Source of the DNA: Oceanimonas smirnovii ATCC BAA-899
Lineage (GTDB): Bacteria > Pseudomonadota > Gammaproteobacteria > Enterobacterales > Aeromonadaceae
Direction: 5' to 3'
NCBI RefSeq assembly: GCF_000381965.1
Contig: NZ_KB908462.1
Span: 1 to 64,000 of the forward strand
DNA: 64,000 nucleotides
The notes under the pieces were generated by a model. The model was not told the DNA's origin. It was given only the letters and a program-made list of their open reading frames with translations, and did not search any database. A program made the position numbers and the translations under genes. Below are positions 19,448 to 54,229 of the stretch, in pieces (the stretch's first letter is position 1; each line of letters starts with the position of its first letter).

Positions 19448-19858
19448 ATGAAACTCGCTTTTGCCGCTACCACCGCTCTGTTACTCACTGCCTGCAGCGG
19501 CGGTCTGAAAGTGGTCGAGTCCGACCTGCAGCATCATCACTGGAATCTGACCGCCGTTAACGGTGAAGCCGTTGGTGCCGATATCAAATCAGAGCTGGAA
19601 ATCGGAGAGCACTTCTCCATTAACGGCCAGGCCGGCTGTAACCGTTTCTTTGGCAGCGCCACTCTGAAGCAGGGCGTGCTCAAGGCAGAACCCCTGGCCA
19701 CCACACAGATGGCTTGCTCACCGGATGCCCAGAAAGTAGAGATTGCCGTGCTCAACACCCTGAACAAGGGAGCTACCGTGATTCAAGACAGCCAGCAACT
19801 CATCCTGAAAGGCGAAGAATATACCCTGACCTACCAACTGGCCGACTGGATGAAATAA
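19448..19858 (+). CDS. hslJ: META-domain lipoprotein HslJ
   Basis: 136 residues with a short signal peptide and lipobox LTAC (Cys16), giving an outer- or inner-membrane lipoprotein, followed by one META domain (W-N-L-T-A-V-N, then GCNRFFG and the TTQMAC motif). HslJ is linked to novobiocin and heat responses in E. coli. AAGGAGC precedes the ATG. Its stop overlaps the trxC start by one base (TAATG). Confidence 0.9.
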   Translation: MKLAFAATTALLLTACSGGLKVVESDLQHHHWNLTAVNGEAVGADIKSELEIGEHFSINGQAGCNRFFGSATLKQGVLKAEPLATTQMACSPDAQKVEIAVLNTLNKGATVIQDSQQLILKGEEYTLTYQLADWMK

Positions 19859-22876: not shown

Positions 22877-23365
22877 TTAGTGGTGGTGATGCCCTTCATC
22901 GTGGGCCATCTTCACTGGCTCGGGCGCAGTGGTGTCCACGGATATTTCTACTTCCACCTCACCGGCCTGCTCAAAGTTCAGGATCAGAGGAAAGCGGTCG
23001 CCTTCCTTGGGTGCCTGTTTCAGCCCCATCAGCATCAGGTGATGGCCGCCCGGGGCCAGGGTGACAGCCTCACCTGCCGGCACCGGCAGGTTGTCGAGCT
23101 GGCGCATTCTCATCATGTCACCGTCCATCACATGGGTATGGATCTCCACTCGCTCGGATACCGGACTCTCGGCGCTCAGCAGCACATCATCGGTGTTGCC
23201 ATGGTTATTTATCACCAGATAGGCGCTGCCGTTGACCGCCATGGGCGGGGCCGGACGACTCCACGGGTGATCAATATGCAGGCCGCCCTGCTCATATTCG
23301 TGAGCTACAACACCAGTGGCGCTCAGCAGCAACAAAGAGGCAAGGGCACTACGCATTAGCTTCAT
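22877..23365 (-). CDS. Periplasmic copper chaperone PCu(A)C
   Basis: 162 residues with a signal peptide (about 1-21, cleavage near VVA-HE) and a PCuAC cupredoxin-like domain. The H/M copper motif is visible: His76/His78 and the Met-rich stretch 80-87, then HHLMLM at 108-113. The extreme C-terminus is His-rich (HDEGHHHH), giving a second metal-binding tail. PCuAC delivers Cu(I) to the CuA/CuB sites of haem-copper oxidases. The ATG at 23365 has AAGGAG. It lies next to a RegBA-type redox system, with a RegA-like operator beside its likely -35. Confidence 0.92.
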   Translation of the reverse strand: MKLMRSALASLLLLSATGVVAHEYEQGGLHIDHPWSRPAPPMAVNGSAYLVINNHGNTDDVLLSAESPVSERVEIHTHVMDGDMMRMRQLDNLPVPAGEAVTLAPGGHHLMLMGLKQAPKEGDRFPLILNFEQAGEVEVEISVDTTAPEPVKMAHDEGHHHH

Positions 23366-23480
23366 GTTTTCACTCCTTAAAATAAAAAAGAGCGGCACTG
23401 GTTGGCACCGCCGGAATCCGTTGCACGGGTAGTGAAAGATGAGTCCCGTTTATAGTAGAAAAAAGTGACTCGTTGCACCA

Positions 23481-23501: not shown

Positions 23502-24029
23502 TTAACGACTGACAGCGTGCTTTTGCAGCATGCGCTGCAGAGTACGCCGGTGCATGCCCAGGGCGCGGGCAGTGGCCGAAATATTGCCATCGTGCTGCTG
23601 CAATACAAACTGCACATATTCCCACTGATGACGTTTGAGCGACGGGGATTCCTCCTCGATACTCAGGCCCGCGGTCTGCTCGGCATCATCTTCTTCAAAC
23701 GCGGCAAGAATGGCGTCAATTTCTGCCGGTTTGGGCAGGTACTGCACCGCACCCAGTTTGATGGCGGCAATGGCGGTACTGATGCTGGCATAACCGGTGA
23801 GCACCACAATACGCGCTCGAGGCTGAGCCGCCACCAGCTCCGGCAGCAGTTGCAGGCCGCTTTCGCCATTCAGGTTCAGATCCAGCAAAATGCCCTGAAA
23901 GCGGGCCGGCAGCGCCAGCGCCTCGTCGCCGGTGGCCGCCCATTCCAGATTCAACCCGCGACGTTTAAAGCCCCGGCACAACAGGCGGGCAAAGGTTTCG
24001 TTGTCATCCACCAGCAAAAAGTCTGTCAT
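23502..24029 (-). CDS. regA: Redox response regulator, RegA/PrrA/ActR family
   Basis: 175 residues: receiver domain with phospho-acceptor Asp50 and the LPKP motif, and a Fis-type HTH at about 135-170 ending MHRRTLQRMLQK, the strongly conserved RegA/PrrA DNA-recognition segment. This family activates oxidase, haem and energy-conservation genes in response to respiratory redox state. Overlaps the sensor gene by 4 nt. Smaller than the usual 180-190 residues but complete. The Pseudomonas counterpart is RoxR. Confidence 0.9.
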   Translation of the reverse strand: MTDFLLVDDNETFARLLCRGFKRRGLNLEWAATGDEALALPARFQGILLDLNLNGESGLQLLPELVAAQPRARIVVLTGYASISTAIAAIKLGAVQYLPKPAEIDAILAAFEEDDAEQTAGLSIEEESPSLKRHQWEYVQFVLQQHDGNISATARALGMHRRTLQRMLQKHAVSR

Positions 24030-25297
24030 GCGCTCGGCTCCAGAGGCAGCAAAATGCGGGCATAGACGCCGCCTTCGGCGTGATTACTGAGTTCCAGCCG
24101 GCCGTTCAGCCGCGACAGAGTCGCGTGAGACAGCCAGACTCCGAGCCCGAGACCGGCGGGTTTGCCCGAATCAAACTGATCCAGTCCGGCCCGGCGCAAC
24201 TGGGCCTCGCTCAGCACGCCGCTGCGGTTATGTACGCCCAGCTCCCAGTCGCCGTTGTGATGAAAATGCGTATGCAGCTCAATACGGCCTTCCCCGGCAT
24301 CGGCGGCGTTATTAAGAATATTAAACAGCGCCGGCCAGAACAACGGGCTGAGCCGCACCCTAGGGTCCTGTTCCGCTACCGGTCGCTGCCAGTCTACCCG
24401 CACTTCCGGTCGCAGATTCTGCCACTGAGCCAGCCGCTCCCCAAGCGTGTGATACAACCGTACCGGTTCTTGCTCTACCTGACTCTGAGACTTAAGCCGG
24501 CTCAGAATATCGGCGCATTGCTGCAACTGAGTGTGAGCCAGTTGCAGATCTTCCTGCACTTCTTCAGGCAGATCGGGAGTCTCGCGCAGCTCTTCGTTAA
24601 GCAGAAACAGGTTGTTGAGAGGCGTGGATAGCTGGTGAGTCAGGCTTGCCGCCTCCATCGCCAGCACCAGCAGCCGCTCGTCGGTGTCCTGACGCTGATA
24701 GGCCTGATTGAGCCGCCGCTCCCGCTCGCCGAGAATACGCACCAGCCGGGATACACAGGTGGTGATCAAGCCAGCTGACAAAGCAAAGGTCAGCCACATG
24801 CCTGCCAGATGCAGATTGAACAGGGCCTCGTGGTCGCCGTGACCAGCGTGCTCCCCCGCCGGCAGCGGCACATGCCAGAAAAACAGCAGCAGATAAAAGG
24901 CGGTGGCGATACCCGTAAGCCCCCAGGCAAAGCGCGCTGAACACACCAGTGCAGCCATCACCAGCGGCAGCAAAAACAGCACCGCCAGCGGGTTGCTGGC
25001 ACCACCGGTCAGCCCCAGCACCAGTCCCAGCGCCAGCACATCCAGCAGCAGACCTTGTTGCAGCAGCCTCTGCGCCGGTCGTCCTTTCTGCCCGGCCTGA
25101 GCCAGCCAGAGATTCAGCCCGGCCATACCCGCCGCCGCCAATGCCAGCGGCAGCAGCGGCAAGCCGAGTTGCAGCAGATAAAACACCAAAGTGCTGGTGC
25201 CCAGCACAGCCACAAACACCCAACGACTGTACAGGCTGAAACGCAGCACGCGATCCAGATCGAGCAATGGCAGAGTGGCGGAAAGGGGTCTGGTCAT
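24026..25297 (-). CDS. regB: Redox sensor histidine kinase, RegB/PrrB family
   Basis: 424 residues with six likely membrane helices in the first 190, the quinone-sensing signature GGASNP (98-103, family GGxxNPF), an H-box LTHQLSTPLNN with His221, and a C-terminal ATPase domain (NILNNAADAG, GLGLGVWLSH). Cysteines occur at 181 and in the linker after the H-box (QQCADIL), where RegB carries its redox-active Cys. ATG 25297 is followed by the family-like MTRPLSATLPLLDLDRVLRF. Forms an operon with regA. Confidence 0.9.
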   Translation of the reverse strand: MTRPLSATLPLLDLDRVLRFSLYSRWVFVAVLGTSTLVFYLLQLGLPLLPLALAAAGMAGLNLWLAQAGQKGRPAQRLLQQGLLLDVLALGLVLGLTGGASNPLAVLFLLPLVMAALVCSARFAWGLTGIATAFYLLLFFWHVPLPAGEHAGHGDHEALFNLHLAGMWLTFALSAGLITTCVSRLVRILGERERRLNQAYQRQDTDERLLVLAMEAASLTHQLSTPLNNLFLLNEELRETPDLPEEVQEDLQLAHTQLQQCADILSRLKSQSQVEQEPVRLYHTLGERLAQWQNLRPEVRVDWQRPVAEQDPRVRLSPLFWPALFNILNNAADAGEGRIELHTHFHHNGDWELGVHNRSGVLSEAQLRRAGLDQFDSGKPAGLGLGVWLSHATLSRLNGRLELSNHAEGGVYARILLPLEPSA

Positions 25298-25347
25298 GGC
25301 GGCGGAACAACACACAAACAAAGCGTCATGGTAGCACGAATAAAAAC

Positions 25348-25382
25348 GCCACAAGTGCGGCAAAATGTCGCACTTGTGGCGT
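25348..25382 (-). terminator. Strong hairpin: terminator with embedded RegA-like site
   Basis: Perfect 13-bp arms CGCCACAAGTGCG/CGCACTTGTGGCG with a 9-nt loop, then TTTTTATT on the minus strand: a textbook terminator for the NhaC-like gene that ends at 25427. Its centre (25356-25372, minus TGCGACATTTTGCCGCA) also matches, at all 14 defined positions, the operator candidate at 23481-23497, and it lies just upstream of a possible regB promoter (TTGTGG, TACCAT). Confidence 0.8.
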
Positions 25383-49522: not shown

Positions 49523-50893
49523 GTGATTTTTGCCGAACGTAAAGACGGTCATCTGCTCAAGCTGTCGCGCATTTTGCGGGAAGCCACCGAGCACCGCTTT
49601 GAGCTTTATCTGTTTGTGCCCGGCGAGCTGGGACTGAACAGCACTGTGGTGCCCGAAGAAAGCTTTTATCACAACGCCATTCATACCAGCCGCACCTATT
49701 TCAGTGACAGGCCGCACCTGCCGCTGGTGCACAGCCGGCTGGCGGAGCGGGGCAAGCTCACGCCCGAGCAATACCGGCTCAGTCTCAGCCTTTATGGTTA
49801 TCAGTATGTGGTGGGGCTGGAGCAGTCCTGTCACGATCTGCGCAACCACATGGAAACAGTAGAGCTGGAAAAGGTGGAAGAAGTGGTGGCTCTGGCCCAG
49901 GACATTCTCAGCCGGCTGCGCCGCCGCGTGCCCACCGACGACACCCTGCGCAAGTATTACACCAACATAGACAACTATGTGTCCTGGTTTACCGAGCAGC
50001 GGCTGCTGGGGCTGGTGGCTCACCTGCCCCGCAACGGCGACTATAAAACCGTGAAGTCCATGCTGCTGGATGTGTGTCAGCTCGAGCGCCAGCACCGCAT
50101 AGAGCACCAATACAATACCGCCCATGCCAGCGATTCATTATCCCGCATTTCCAACAAGATGCGGCTGTTGCGCCGGCTGATCGAATACCCGGTCACCCTC
50201 AAGGAAAAAACCCGGGAGCTGGGCGGCGGCGAGCAAAAACTGCTTAAATCCGTGGTCACCGCCGTGGTGATGACCACTGTCTCGCTGGCCGCTTATGAAG
50301 TACGGGAAACCCTGGGTGGTATTTCCATGATGGTGATTTTTGCTCTGGCCCTGCTCTATGCACTGCGGGAGCTGTTCAAGGACGACCTGCGCAACACCCT
50401 CTGGCGCTGGCTGCGCAAGGGCAGACCCAAATGGCGGCGGCAGTATTTTGATGTGCACAGCAGTCAGCCCGTGGGCCGCCAGCTGGAATGGTTTGATTAC
50501 AAGCGTCCGTCCCGGGTGCCCGATGAGGTACGCGCCGTGCGTCGGGCCAGCATCAGCCAGCGGGAAGAAGTGGTGATGTTTTACGGCAGCCATTCGCGCA
50601 TGCTGCCCACCCGATTTCTGACCGGCTATGAACAGACCCGGGAAAGCCTGCAGCTGGATTTAAGCATGCTGGCACGGCTAATGGAAAAAGGCTCTCACCA
50701 TGTGTATCAGCTTAAAGACAATCAGGTGGCCCGCCAGCCGGTGGAAAAACGCTATCTGTTCAACCTGGTCACCCGCGAGGTTCAGGGCCAGAAGCCACCG
50801 GTGCTGCAGCGCTGGAAGGTGGTGGTCAGCCGCTCCAAGATAGTGGAAATTGAAGAAATTCCGCAATCATCAAAAAACGGAAAAAAGCTGTAA
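49523..50893 (+). CDS. Uncharacterised membrane protein, 456 residues
   Basis: Not recognised. GTG start after a GGAG-containing site. The first 240 residues are soluble and charged, with helical segments (for example 100-135). Two membrane helices follow at about 240-258 and 265-283, joined by a very short loop (a hairpin), and then about 170 basic residues ([17 protein letters not shown]). Both large domains would then face the cytoplasm. It follows the TetR-like gene closely and precedes the bufferin operon by 82 bp. Confidence 0.78.
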
Positions 50894-50914
50894 GAATCCG
50901 GCCCTCTCATTCGA
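50889..50914 (+). promoter_or_regulatory. ECF-sigma promoter candidate of the bufferin operon
   Basis: GTAAGA (50889-50894), 16-bp spacer, CGAC (50911-50914). This resembles the GTAACC-N16-CGAA type known for the Caulobacter SigF regulon, which includes similar DUF2282 operons. It lies 62 bp before the precursor start and overlaps the end of the upstream gene, consistent with autoregulation by the operon's own sigma factor. Confidence 0.45.
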
Positions 50915-50975
50915 CTGTACAGAAGAACAGACACACAAGACGGTTTGTTTCTTCACTGACAGAAGGATGCTGAGT

Positions 50976-51284
50976 ATGAATAAGGTCAACACTGCTACTA
51001 CCCTTGCCTTTGCCCTGAGCACAGCACTGGCCGCTTCCGGCACGGCGCTTGCCGACAATCACAGCGGCATCAAAGGCGAGATGGAAAAATGCTACGGCGT
51101 GGCCCTGGCCGGCCAGAATGACTGCGCAGCCGGCCCCGGCACCAGCTGCGCCGGCACATCAAAAACCGACTATCAGGGCAATGCCTGGAAACTGGTGCCC
51201 GCCGGCACCTGTCTGGAAACCGACTCCCCCACCTCGCCCACCGGCAAGGGCCAGCTGAACGCCTTTGATGAAGTAAAGGCCTGA
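50976..51284 (+). CDS. bufA: Bufferin-type RiPP precursor (DUF2282, BufA1)
   Basis: 102-residue secreted peptide: signal peptide 1-26 (ALA-D), then a core with four cysteines, Cys39 in [15 protein letters not shown], Cys50, Cys58 in [10 protein letters not shown] and Cys79 in PAGTCL, the standard BufA1 pattern. In characterised bufferins an MNIO enzyme converts core cysteines into thiooxazole groups, and the periplasmic product binds copper. ATG 50976 is 8 nt after AGGA; two earlier in-frame ATGs lack this. First gene of bufA-bufB-bufC-doxX-sigma-antisigma. Confidence 0.93.
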
Positions 51285-51299
51285 GCCCAGGGAGGCACC

Positions 51300-52187
51300 A
51301 TGACCACATCGTTTAACCGGGCGTCGTCGGGTGCCTTTTCCCTGCCGGCCTCGGCGGGGCTGGGGCTCAAACTGCAGCACACCGAGGAAATACTCACCAC
51401 TCACCCGCCCCTGGGCTTTGTGGAAATTCATGCGGAAAATTTTATGGTGGCGGGCGGCCCCCGCCATCATTACTTAAGCCGTATTCGGCAGCATTACGCG
51501 TTGTCGGTCCATGGTGTGGGCCTGTCGCTGGGGGGAAAGGAACCTCTGAACCAGGAGCATCTGACCCGGCTGGCGCAACTGGTTGCACGTTATCAGCCCG
51601 AGGCGGTGTCGGAGCATATCGCCTGGTCCGGACTGGGCGGCCGCTATACCAATGATCTGCTGCCCCTGGCTTACACGCCCGCCAGTCTGCAACGGCTGTG
51701 CAGCCATATCGACCAGGTGCAGCAAACACTGAACCGCCCCATTATGGTGGAAAACCCCGCCACCTATCTGCGCTTTACCGAATCCACCCTGAGTGAGGCC
51801 GATTTTATCAGCGAGGCGGTGCGCCGCACCGGCTGTGGCCTGCTGCTGGATGTAAACAATGTGTATGTGTCGGCGGTCAATCACCATTACGACGCCCGGG
51901 CCTATATTCAGGCGCTGCCACTGGACCGGGCAGGCGAAGTGCACCTGGCGGGCTTTGACGAACAGGCCGACGACAGCGGCGCGCCCCTGCTGATAGACAG
52001 TCACGGCAGCCCGGTGGCCGAGCCGGTGTGGGCGTTGTACCAATGGCTGCTGGCGCACACCGGCCCCCTGCCCACCCTGCTGGAGCGGGACAATAATGTG
52101 CCCGCCCTGAATGAGTTACTGACAGAAACGGCGCATATTCAGCGCCTGCTCGATGAGCCACGTCTCAGGGAGTGCCGCCATGCATGA
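51300..52187 (+). CDS. bufB: MNIO/DUF692 multinuclear iron enzyme BufB
   Basis: 295-residue TIM-barrel enzyme of the DUF692 family: GFVEIHAENFM, LSVHGVGLSLGG, VSEHIAWSG, MVENPATYL, LLLDVNNVYVSAVNHHYD, EVHLAGFDEQ and PTLLERDNN. These carry the His/Asp/Glu iron ligands of MNIO proteins. Expected to modify cysteines of the precursor encoded 15 nt upstream. GGGAGGCACC precedes the ATG. Ends by overlapping bufC. Confidence 0.94.
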   Translation: MTTSFNRASSGAFSLPASAGLGLKLQHTEEILTTHPPLGFVEIHAENFMVAGGPRHHYLSRIRQHYALSVHGVGLSLGGKEPLNQEHLTRLAQLVARYQPEAVSEHIAWSGLGGRYTNDLLPLAYTPASLQRLCSHIDQVQQTLNRPIMVENPATYLRFTESTLSEADFISEAVRRTGCGLLLDVNNVYVSAVNHHYDARAYIQALPLDRAGEVHLAGFDEQADDSGAPLLIDSHGSPVAEPVWALYQWLLAHTGPLPTLLERDNNVPALNELLTETAHIQRLLDEPRLRECRHA

Positions 52188-52932
52188 CGCCTTTCTCGAC
52201 GCCCTGCTCGACCCGGTCCGGCCGGTGCCCGATGCTGTGGCCGCCCATGACGGCCGGCAGGCCCGCTTCAACGTCTATCGCAATAACGTGCGGGTGTCAC
52301 TGACCGAGGCGCTGGCGGCGCAGTTCCCGGTATGCCGGCAACTGGTGGGGGAAGACTTTTTTAACGCCATGACAGGTTGTTATATAGCGCAGTCGTTGCC
52401 CGCCTCACCGCTGCTTACCGACTATGGCCACAGCCTGCCTGAGTTTATCGAGGGCTTTGCTCCCGCTGCCAGTGTGCCCTATCTGGCGGATATGGCGCGG
52501 CTGGAGCTGGCGGTACAAGCCGTGCTCCATGCAGCCGATGCCAGGCCACTGCCACCGGAACAATTACAGTTGCTGCTGGCGGATCCGGAACGTCTGGCCA
52601 GCCACAAGCTGAAACTGAGCCCCGACTGTGCCCTGCTGCGCTCAGCCTTTGCAGTAGGTTCCATCTGGCTGGCCCACCAGGGCGAGGGCCGGCTTAAAGA
52701 CATACAGGCCGCCACTGCGGAAAATGCCCTGCTACTGCGCACCAGCCTGTCGGTTGCCCTGCTGCGCCTGAATAACGCCGATGCCGCCTTTATGGCCGGG
52801 CTGCTGACCGGTCAGCCTTTAGGGCTGGCCCTTGAGCGCACGACACAGCAGCACCCGCAGTATAACCCCGCCAATATGCTGAACTGCCTGCTGCGCCAGC
52901 GCCTGATCACCGGTACAGGAGCTGCATCATGA
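52180..52932 (+). CDS. bufC: DUF2063 bufferin partner protein BufC
   Basis: 250 residues; N-terminal DUF2063 domain (RFNVYRNNVRVSLTEALAAQFPVCRQLVGEDFF, then DYGHSLPEFIEGFAPAASVPYLADMARLE). In MNIO systems this protein delivers or recognises the precursor. ATG 52180 has GGAG 7 nt upstream and overlaps the bufB stop by 8 nt; an ATG 27 nt earlier is possible but lacks a site. Confidence 0.92.
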   Translation: MHDAFLDALLDPVRPVPDAVAAHDGRQARFNVYRNNVRVSLTEALAAQFPVCRQLVGEDFFNAMTGCYIAQSLPASPLLTDYGHSLPEFIEGFAPAASVPYLADMARLELAVQAVLHAADARPLPPEQLQLLLADPERLASHKLKLSPDCALLRSAFAVGSIWLAHQGEGRLKDIQAATAENALLLRTSLSVALLRLNNADAAFMAGLLTGQPLGLALERTTQQHPQYNPANMLNCLLRQRLITGTGAAS

Positions 52933-53411
52933 AGCTGACCAACACACTGTGTACCTGGCGCAACGTGCTTAATCGTCTGCCCCATTCATTTATCGCCCTG
53001 CTGGGCCGGTTTGCCATTGCCGCCGTGTTCTGGCGCTCGGGCCAGACCAAGGTAGACAACTTCAGCCTCGACATCGTCAGCGGCGAGTTCAGTCTGGGCT
53101 GGCCCAGCCTGAATCCGTCTGCGGTGTTTCTGTTTCGGGAAGAGTACCGGCTGCCGCTGATTTCTCCCGAGCTGGGTGCCCTGCTGGCGGCTACTGCCGA
53201 GCATGTGTTTCCGCTGCTGTTGTTGCTGGGGCTGGCAACCCGGCTGTCGGCGCTGGCGCTGCTGGCCATGACCCTGGTGATCCAGGTGCTGGTGTATCCC
53301 GGTGCCTGGCCGCTGCACGGCGTCTGGGCCACGGTATTACTGCTGCTGGCCGCTCGCGGGCCGGGCATCATTTCAGTGGATTATTGGCTAACCGGAAAAC
53401 GGTGTGATTAA
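52929..53411 (+). CDS. DoxX-family membrane protein of the bufferin operon
   Basis: 160 residues, four membrane helices, with the DoxX hallmarks GRFAIAAVFWRSGQTKV and AEHVFPLLLLLGLATRLSALALLAMT. Exact role unknown; DoxX proteins regularly accompany BufABC. ATGA overlap with bufC. Its stop precedes the sigma-factor start by 40 nt. Confidence 0.9.
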   Translation: MKLTNTLCTWRNVLNRLPHSFIALLGRFAIAAVFWRSGQTKVDNFSLDIVSGEFSLGWPSLNPSAVFLFREEYRLPLISPELGALLAATAEHVFPLLLLLGLATRLSALALLAMTLVIQVLVYPGAWPLHGVWATVLLLLAARGPGIISVDYWLTGKRCD

Positions 53412-53451
53412 CTGTTACTTATCTCACCATACCCAACTGACAAGGATTGTT

Positions 53452-54039
53452 ATGGCGATTTCTTCCGGTGCCAGTGCTGGGCTGAACGAGCAACTGCGGC
53501 TGCAGATGCTGAAATTTGCCACCCTGCAACTGCGCGATCCCACGCTGGCGGAAGACGCCGTGCAGGAAGCCATGCTGGGAGCTTTCCGCTATGCCGACTC
53601 CTTTAACGGCAAGGCCGCCTACAAAACCTGGGTGTTTGCCATTCTCAAGCACAAAATTGCCGATGAGTTACGCAAGCGCCAAAAGCTTGCCACCGTCAGC
53701 GAACTGAATGATGAGGACGATCAGCAGTTTGAAGAAAAGCTGTTTAATCAAAACGGCCGCTGGCACAAGCAGGAGCGACCGCAGCGCTGGAGCTCCCCCG
53801 ACGACAGCCTGGAAGATGAACGCTTCTGGCAAATCTTTGAAGCCTGCCTCAACGGCTTGCCTGCCAGTCAGGGCAGAGTCTTTATGATGCGGGAGTTTGT
53901 GGGGCTGGAAAGTTCAGAGATCTGTGCCGAGCTTGCCCTCACCGTCAGTAACCTGAATGTGCTGCTGTACCGGGCACGGCTCAGATTGCGGGCATGTCTG
54001 GAAAATCGCTGGCAGCAACAAGGAGACTGCGCATGCTGA
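53452..54039 (+). CDS. ECF RNA polymerase sigma factor
   Basis: 195 residues: sigma region 2 (about 12-75: FATLQLRDPTLAEDAVQEAMLGAFRYADSFNGKAAYKTWVFAILKHKIADELRKR) and region 4 (about 130-185: GLPASQGRVFMMREFVGLESSEICAELALTVSNLNVLLYRARLRLR). Between them is a charged insertion of about 50 residues. The start at 53452 has AGGA 5 nt upstream; an earlier ATG would overlap doxX. Expected to drive its own operon via the promoter candidate at 50889. Confidence 0.92.
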   Translation: MAISSGASAGLNEQLRLQMLKFATLQLRDPTLAEDAVQEAMLGAFRYADSFNGKAAYKTWVFAILKHKIADELRKRQKLATVSELNDEDDQQFEEKLFNQNGRWHKQERPQRWSSPDDSLEDERFWQIFEACLNGLPASQGRVFMMREFVGLESSEICAELALTVSNLNVLLYRARLRLRACLENRWQQQGDCAC

Positions 54040-54209
54040 AATGTCACCAGGCGACCCGGTTAATGTCTGAAGCTCAGGAACGCCCTCTCAACGCCAGAGA
54101 AAAACTGAGCCTGAGAATGCACACTCTGATGTGTGCTGCCTGCCATCACTTTCAGCAGCAGCTGCCGGTATTACGCCGGCTCAGCCAGGCCTATACCAAA
54201 CGCAAATAG
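54033..54209 (+). CDS. Zinc-finger anti-sigma factor, soluble, 58 residues
   Basis: A minimal ZAS domain: CHQATRL at the start and the HTLMCAACHHF motif (His-x3-Cys-x2-Cys) at residues 29-36. No membrane helix, so the whole protein is cytoplasmic. The start overlaps the sigma-factor stop by 7 nt. AAGGAG lies 6 nt before. Such proteins release sigma on zinc loss, oxidation or metal exchange; the trigger here is inferred to be copper or thiol stress. Confidence 0.88.
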   Translation: MLKCHQATRLMSEAQERPLNAREKLSLRMHTLMCAACHHFQQQLPVLRRLSQAYTKRK

Positions 54210-54229
54210 GCCCGGTGTTTACCGGGCCT
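54208..54229. terminator. Hairpin between convergent anti-sigma and chemoreceptor genes
   Basis: Perfect 9-bp stem AGGCCCGGT/ACCGGGCCT with loop GTTT, starting in the anti-sigma stop codon. No T-run on either strand, so only a weak or Rho-assisted terminator. Confidence 0.5.

Follow-up and report, generated by a model that had tools for sequence, protein, structure and literature searches.

The stretch of DNA analyzed here (the window) covers 64,000 nucleotides of Oceanimonas smirnovii ATCC BAA-899, positions 1 to 64,000 of contig NZ_KB908462.1. Positions 50976-54209 of the window hold a bona fide bufferin operon of the Buf1 (DUF2282) type, a kind already described, with the gene order bufA, bufB, bufC, doxX, extracytoplasmic function (ECF) sigma factor and zinc-binding anti-sigma (ZAS) factor. 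The six frames are intact and all lie on the + strand. The initial annotation had given the six genes and their overlaps as they stand, and had overlooked the promoter at 50889-50915. The features of the operon were the following:

50889-50915, + strand: ECF promoter, TGTAAGAA-N15-CGAC, 60 bp before bufA
50976-51284, + strand: bufA, Buf1 precursor of 102 aa; Pfam DUF2282 PF10048, E=2e-25
51300-52187, + strand: bufB, MNIO (multinuclear non-haem iron-dependent oxidase; DUF692) maturase of 295 aa; NCBIfam NF050167 MNIO_BufB, 375 bits, cut-off 310
52180-52932, + strand: bufC, DUF2063 partner protein (PME1 / RRE-type); PF09836, 4e-24
52929-53411, + strand: doxX, DoxX-family inner-membrane protein; PF07681, 2e-15
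53452-54039, + strand: ECF sigma factor of 195 aa; TIGR02943, 248 bits, cut-off 162
54033-54209, + strand: ZAS-type anti-sigma factor of 58 aa; NF052368, 71 bits, cut-off 50; zf-HC2

The family matches were strong, and the overlapping starts announced for bufC, doxX and the anti-sigma gene measured 8 nt (bufB/bufC), 4 nt (bufC/doxX) and 7 nt (sigma/ZAS). The sole notable gap was the 40 nt between doxX and the sigma gene, whose ATG at 53452 is preceded by an AAGGA box (the GTG at 53404 is a possible alternative). An alternative start is also possible for bufC, at 52153; its score against NCBIfam HvfC, 50 bits, was under the cut-off of 142. The operon is present in a single copy, with one MNIO gene and one DUF2282 gene in the genome.

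Conserved Residues in the Encoded Proteins

Cysteines C39, C50, C58 and C79 of BufA were invariant in an alignment of 146 relatives, and the leader, which by inspection ends in ALA, is of the Sec type (A26 in 91% of the relatives). In Buf1, the modification falls on the two central cysteines, and a disulphide links the outer pair (PMC12452194). BufB residues H71, H106, E151, D184, H215, D233, H235 and E262 were kept in 98-99% of 122 relatives; they align with those of PDB 3bww, a relative at 2e-42, and largely with those of MbnB. The locus combines several hallmarks of Buf1: a four-cysteine DUF2282 precursor with a Sec-type leader, a BufB with metal-ligand residues and a DUF2063 partner. A Buf2 (BufA2) identity of the precursor was rejected, NF050166 giving 20.8 bits where 60 are required and the core having four cysteines, not 6 or 12. 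In DoxX, positions R27, K41, E91, R105, H130, W133 and D151 were conserved at 95-99% among 109 relatives; the charged ones (R27, K41, E91, R105, H130, D151) suggest a real function, the nature of which they do not indicate.

The putative zinc ligands of the anti-sigma factor, C4, H30, C34 and C37, were conserved at 99-100% in 99 relatives. Their arrangement, C4-X25-H30-X3-C34-X2-C37, is within the ZAS definition C/H-X23-26-H-X3-C-X2-C quoted in PMC7907618, and a pattern of C/H-X(20-30)-H-X3-C-X2-C was present in 98 of the 99. The protein has no transmembrane segment (hydropathy maximum of 0.44); it is, as in the ZAS class, a small soluble protein bearing the motif and encoded with an ECF sigma factor. 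The membrane protein NrsF was dismissed as the anti-sigma factor here, since the gene product is a 58-aa zf-HC2 protein lacking a transmembrane segment. In a search of the PDB, BufC had no relative, and the matches to the ZAS protein were chance ones to heme sites. The sigma factor ends in a Cys-x-Cys tail (GDCAC), shared by most orthologues in Oceanimonas, Zobellella and Oceanisphaera and not seen elsewhere.

The Promoter Upstream of bufA

The promoter at 50889-50915 reads TGTAAGAATCCGGCCCTCTCATTCGAC and follows the consensus TGTAAKAA-N15-CG[A/T]C, the TAA of the -35 element being the stop codon of the upstream open reading frame (ORF) 49523-50893. The motif first appeared as a block, TGTAAgAA...CGAC, in the alignment of the region before bufA in near relatives; it was used in place of a Neisseria-like GTNA-type pattern, which gave few matches. 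The strict form, TGTAANAA-N14/15-CG[AT]C, was scanned in the 250-bp stretch before the gene with dinucleotide shuffles as the control. In the loci retrieved from genome searches with the sigma protein as the query, which span several families, the strict motif preceded bufA in 31 of 36 cases and the relaxed one in 34 (shuffled expectation of 0.0 and 0.05, respectively), with a 15-nt spacer in 30 of the 31 strict sites. It was also found before the sigma gene in many loci in which this gene has a promoter of its own: of 81 loci, 24 had the strict form and 39 the relaxed form, for expectations of 0.05 and 0.15. The -10 element of all strict family sites was CGAC or CGTC. The sigma-ZAS pair adjoins bufABC-doxX in Oceanimonas, Marinomonas, Vibrio, Aromatoleum, Thermomonas, Aeromonas RU39B and others, and motif sites were present in all three gene orders, with the pair upstream, convergent or downstream. 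A promoter scan of the + strand of the region detected no sigma-70-like promoter before bufA or the sigma gene.

Two bufA regions showed a duplicated organization. In an uncultured Vibrio (L059, 7820-9310), four tandem bufA copies precede bufB, two of them with their own sigma motif upstream. In locus L168 (G134:C3:19375-19400 and 19454-19479), two identical sigma promoters lie in tandem upstream of bufA.

A separate survey was seeded on DUF2282 instead of the sigma factor. DUF2282 was found in 95 of 370 gammaproteobacterial genomes drawn across families; ZAS and NrsF were sought in 80 of them and 80 loci were read. ZAS was the commoner anti-sigma factor linked to the Buf1 operon in this sample, at nine loci compared to two for NrsF. 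The strict motif occurred at four of the nine ZAS-linked loci and at none of the 71 others (p=8e-5, the p-values of the survey ignoring relatedness). Counted per genome, where the bufA region was read, a strict or relaxed motif was present in 9/13 genomes with a ZAS gene versus 2/57 without one (p=5e-7). The same held within the Aeromonadaceae, where seven Aeromonas buf loci devoid of ZAS were also devoid of the motif and Aeromonas RU39B (L082/L130) had both.

The strict motif had a single match in the 3.28-Mb genome, the one at bufA, which was also the only one in the window (shuffle expectation of 0.01 per 64 kb). The self-regulation put forward in the initial annotation is supported by these observations: the same ECF promoter is conserved at bufA across loci, it co-occurs with the ZAS gene and it has one strict site in the genome. 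A link with the PCuAC/RegBA genes approximately 27 kb away had also been proposed. The PCuAC copper chaperone (22877-23398, 1.9e-41) is real and is accompanied by a HisKA/HATPase histidine kinase gene (24026-25363), but no sigma motif was found near either gene or other neighbours of the operon in the 64-kb window, nor a strict one elsewhere in the genome, and their membership of the bufferin regulon was rejected.

Probable Origin of the Switch

The 23 genomes of the window's GTDB genus were compared. A ZAS gene was present in 18 of them, always in a single copy, and all ten genomes with DUF2282 had it. In ten genomes, it lies within approximately 2 kb of an ArsS gene. Three genomes (G044, G053, G057) carry the buf operon behind a homologue of ORF 49523-50893 (75-81% identity), with the motif present and no sigma-ZAS pair after doxX, their single sigma gene being elsewhere. 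In the Oceanimonas clade (G000, which is the present genome, and G041, G043, G047, G051, G055, G058), the single pair is directly behind doxX and not beside ArsS. The sigma tree groups the doxX-linked and the ArsS-linked (Zobellella/Oceanisphaera) arrangements as orthologues with a support of 100/100. Among the ZAS carriers, only G000 and G041 lack both ArsS and the VTT-flavoprotein.

The near relatives showed several motif-bearing targets. The motif precedes the sigma gene, a VTT(TVP38)-MerA-like flavoprotein gene, a SoxA/MauG-like cytochrome gene with DUF6969, an SSF symporter gene, the gene of a thioredoxin-fold protein and that of a DUF417 protein with a weak likeness to RclC. In several relatives it also lies directly before the gene of a predicted secreted peptide of 63-78 aa with two cysteines (..GDGVDNRHCMLMKKRG..PGYC), at L225:3377-3568, L227:3526-3717, L230:5674-5910 and L233:3879-4073; the one copy scanned had no Pfam or NCBIfam match. 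In Zobellella/Oceanisphaera-type loci (L036, L037, L236, L240, L243), the orthologous pair stands beside ArsS (TIGR04167), TIGR04283 and TIGR04282. This ArsS-linked regulon, with the VTT-MerA-like flavoprotein and other targets, is apparently undescribed.

The simplest reading of these arrangements is that the sigma-ZAS pair was relocated into the buf operon and that the other tested targets were then lost, the direction of the move being the more parsimonious one. With the pair behind doxX in the Oceanimonas clade, and the other tested targets gone from the present genome and one relative, a multi-target stress sigma factor appears to have become a one-operon switch. We extend this only tentatively, at somewhat below even odds, to a fuller scenario: the ZAS-held sigma factor of a multi-target redox/metalloid regulon would have moved behind the bufferin operon and shed its other targets, leaving a one-promoter positive-feedback capsule in which copper or oxidants are sensed in the cytoplasm and not, as with NrsF, in the periplasm.

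Proposed Model and Alternatives

We propose that the operon is a self-contained positive-feedback Buf1 module under a ZAS-held ECF sigma factor, a reading to which we give a probability of roughly 0.78. In this model, BufB and BufC would act in the cytoplasm, turning the central cysteine pair of BufA into thiooxazoles, by analogy with Caulobacter Buf1, which bears such groups and binds both Cu(I) and Cu(II) (PMC12452194), and with MNIO-DUF2063 pairs, which install 5-thiooxazoles broadly (PMC13097082). BufA would then be exported by Sec, its outer cysteines forming a disulphide, and would sequester periplasmic copper, a protective role carried over from the experimentally studied homologues; DoxX may act as an inner-membrane helper. 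The TIGR02943 sigma factor, made from the last-but-one gene, would read the only promoter of the operon at 50889-50915. The cytoplasmic ZAS protein of 58 aa would release it only once the zinc/thiol site (C4, H30, C34, C37) is attacked, either by a soft metal such as Cu(I) or by thiol oxidants such as hypochlorous acid (HOCl). The freed sigma factor would amplify the whole operon, including its own gene and that of its inhibitor. Basal amounts of the sigma and anti-sigma factors could come from slight read-through of the preceding gene, the stop codon of which forms part of the -35 element. Restraint of this kind is documented for the ZAS proteins HrsE and MseR, which act on ECF sigma factors driving MNIO-DUF2063-DoxX operons (PMC7907618, PMC2893595). 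The initial statement that the sigma trigger is undescribed was too strong: HOCl triggers RpoE2/HrsE of Haemophilus influenzae, the closest characterized relative (PMC7907618), and Cr/Cd act in Caulobacter (PMC3511200).

Several observations weigh against this model. H2O2, diamide and singlet oxygen all failed to elicit a response from meningococcal MseR (PMC2893595), which makes the trigger proposed for this family a tentative one. In Cupriavidus metallidurans, no evidence was found for initiation of gig transcription by RpoQ (PMC10304878). Two Oceanimonas-type bufA promoters (G047, G043) have CAGAC instead of CGAC, and two of the nine ZAS-linked survey loci had no recognizable motif. The Cys-x-Cys tail of the sigma factor was ruled out as a general metal sensor, because it is confined to the Oceanimonas/Zobellella/Oceanisphaera lineage.

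The operon could instead be mainly a response to HOCl or thiol stress, in which the sigma factor answers oxidative damage to the envelope and copper buffering is a secondary benefit, since copper and oxidants act together. The HOCl-induced RpoE2/HrsE pair of H. influenzae drives an MNIO-DUF2063-DoxX operon along with methionine-sulfoxide repair (PMC7907618), and the VTT-MerA-like flavoprotein, the thioredoxin-fold protein and the RclC-like (weakly) DUF417 protein are among the motif targets of near relatives. However, gig operons are copper-induced in Cupriavidus (PMC10304878) and Legionella (PMC5413113), and in the present genome the VTT-flavoprotein is gone and the strict motif is left only at the bufferin operon. 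This explanation is credible though less probable than the model above. Slightly less probable again is a sigma factor that has kept further targets in this genome, read from weaker variants of the promoter, instead of serving a single operon. Family promoters deviating from the strict motif do exist, such as CAGAC in L004 and L006, and relatives have several sites. Allowing one mismatch, however, added only 10 sites in the genome compared to 47 for the reversed-pattern control (an imperfect control, TAA being depleted in coding frames). They were rejected as further targets, none being near plausible or known regulon genes; one near-match with the CAGAC variant falls inside a cytochrome c gene. 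That the DUF2282 cluster is a passive relic, carried unused, is highly improbable: the operon is often lost (13/23 genomes of the genus are without DUF2282), but here the six frames are intact, and across species the promoter has been conserved in step with the residues of the active sites and the ligands.

Neighbourhood of the Operon

Upstream of the operon are TRAP-type transporter genes, a TetR-like gene and ORF 49523-50893, which encodes 456 aa with no Pfam or NCBIfam match; it precedes bufA in near relatives, even where the sigma-ZAS pair is elsewhere. A convergent gene for a methyl-accepting chemotaxis protein (MCP) with a PAS domain follows downstream, then the gene for a monomeric isocitrate dehydrogenase. 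One further feature lies at the end of the operon:

54208-54229, strand not assigned: strong hairpin between the anti-sigma gene and the convergent MCP gene, fold z = -2.96

The terminator scan matched this hairpin on the - strand only. It is plausibly the end of transcription, though it has no good T tract.

Comparison with Known Systems

The DUF2282-DUF692-DUF2063-DoxX core with an autoregulated ECF sigma factor is shared with sigF-nrsF of Caulobacter vibrioides (CC3252-CC3257) and with RpoE7 of Sinorhizobium meliloti (SMb20530-20527), both of the ECF16 group. Their -35 element is also of the TGTAA type (GTAACC-N16-CGAA, PMC3511200; TGTAAC...CGAA, PMC6180224), whereas their -10 element is CGAA in place of CGAC/CGTC. 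Their anti-sigma factor NrsF is a membrane protein with six transmembrane segments and periplasmic cysteines, unlike the 58-aa cytoplasmic zinc-finger protein found here, and their sigma genes are divergent, whereas here the sigma gene runs in the same direction as the buf genes and follows them. The Caulobacter operon answers Cr/Cd via this other anti-sigma factor (PMC3511200). Control of the ECF16/NrsF type was rejected for the present operon, which has neither NrsF nor the CGAA element.

The sigE operon of Neisseria with MseR (NMB2140-NMB2145, PMC2893595) and RpoE2/HrsE of H. influenzae (PMC7907618) likewise place an ECF sigma factor and a small ZAS protein over a precursor-MNIO-DUF2063-DoxX operon. 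In Neisseria, the pair shares one autoregulated operon with these genes, as here, whereas in Haemophilus the sigma genes are apart from the operon. The promoter there, GTMAGBWTT / CGTCTAAH, resembles TGTAAKAA / CGWC. Their precursor, however, is of the EGKCG (oxazolin/gonophorin) type and not a DUF2282 Buf1, and msrAB belongs to their regulons. The likeness to ECF group 13, which comprises these sigma factors, is limited to a TIGR02943/PRK12544-type similarity and the similar promoter. Copper- and gold-induced gigPABT of C. metallidurans (PMC10304878) shares the Buf1 core and a neighbouring ECF sigma/anti-sigma pair, rpoQ-rsqA; there, the sigma genes are divergent, RsqA is membrane-bound and control by RpoQ is not demonstrated. 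The Oceanisphaera-/Zobellella-type loci (L036, L037, L236, L240) have the orthologous pair and the same motif, linked to ArsS, TIGR04283, TIGR04282 and the VTT-flavoprotein and not to bufferin genes.

Published sigma-controlled Buf1 operons use NrsF (PMC3511200, PMC12452194); control by a sigma-ZAS pair has been described for operons of the EGKCG type. A literature search, whose coverage left out most subscription papers, found no ZAS-switched Buf1 operon, nor its promoter or the narrowing to a single target. The core operon is already known; what appears new is that a ZAS switch is joined to Buf1, along with the promoter and the narrowing to one target. It adds to the described class, with its membrane-bound NrsF, a second class of control for Buf1 bufferins, by a soluble ZAS protein. 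The series of relatives illustrates clearly how a sigma factor may switch operon and narrow its regulon. The promoter motif can be used to predict targets of the sigma factor, and with a reporter it gives direct access to the trigger of bufferin synthesis.

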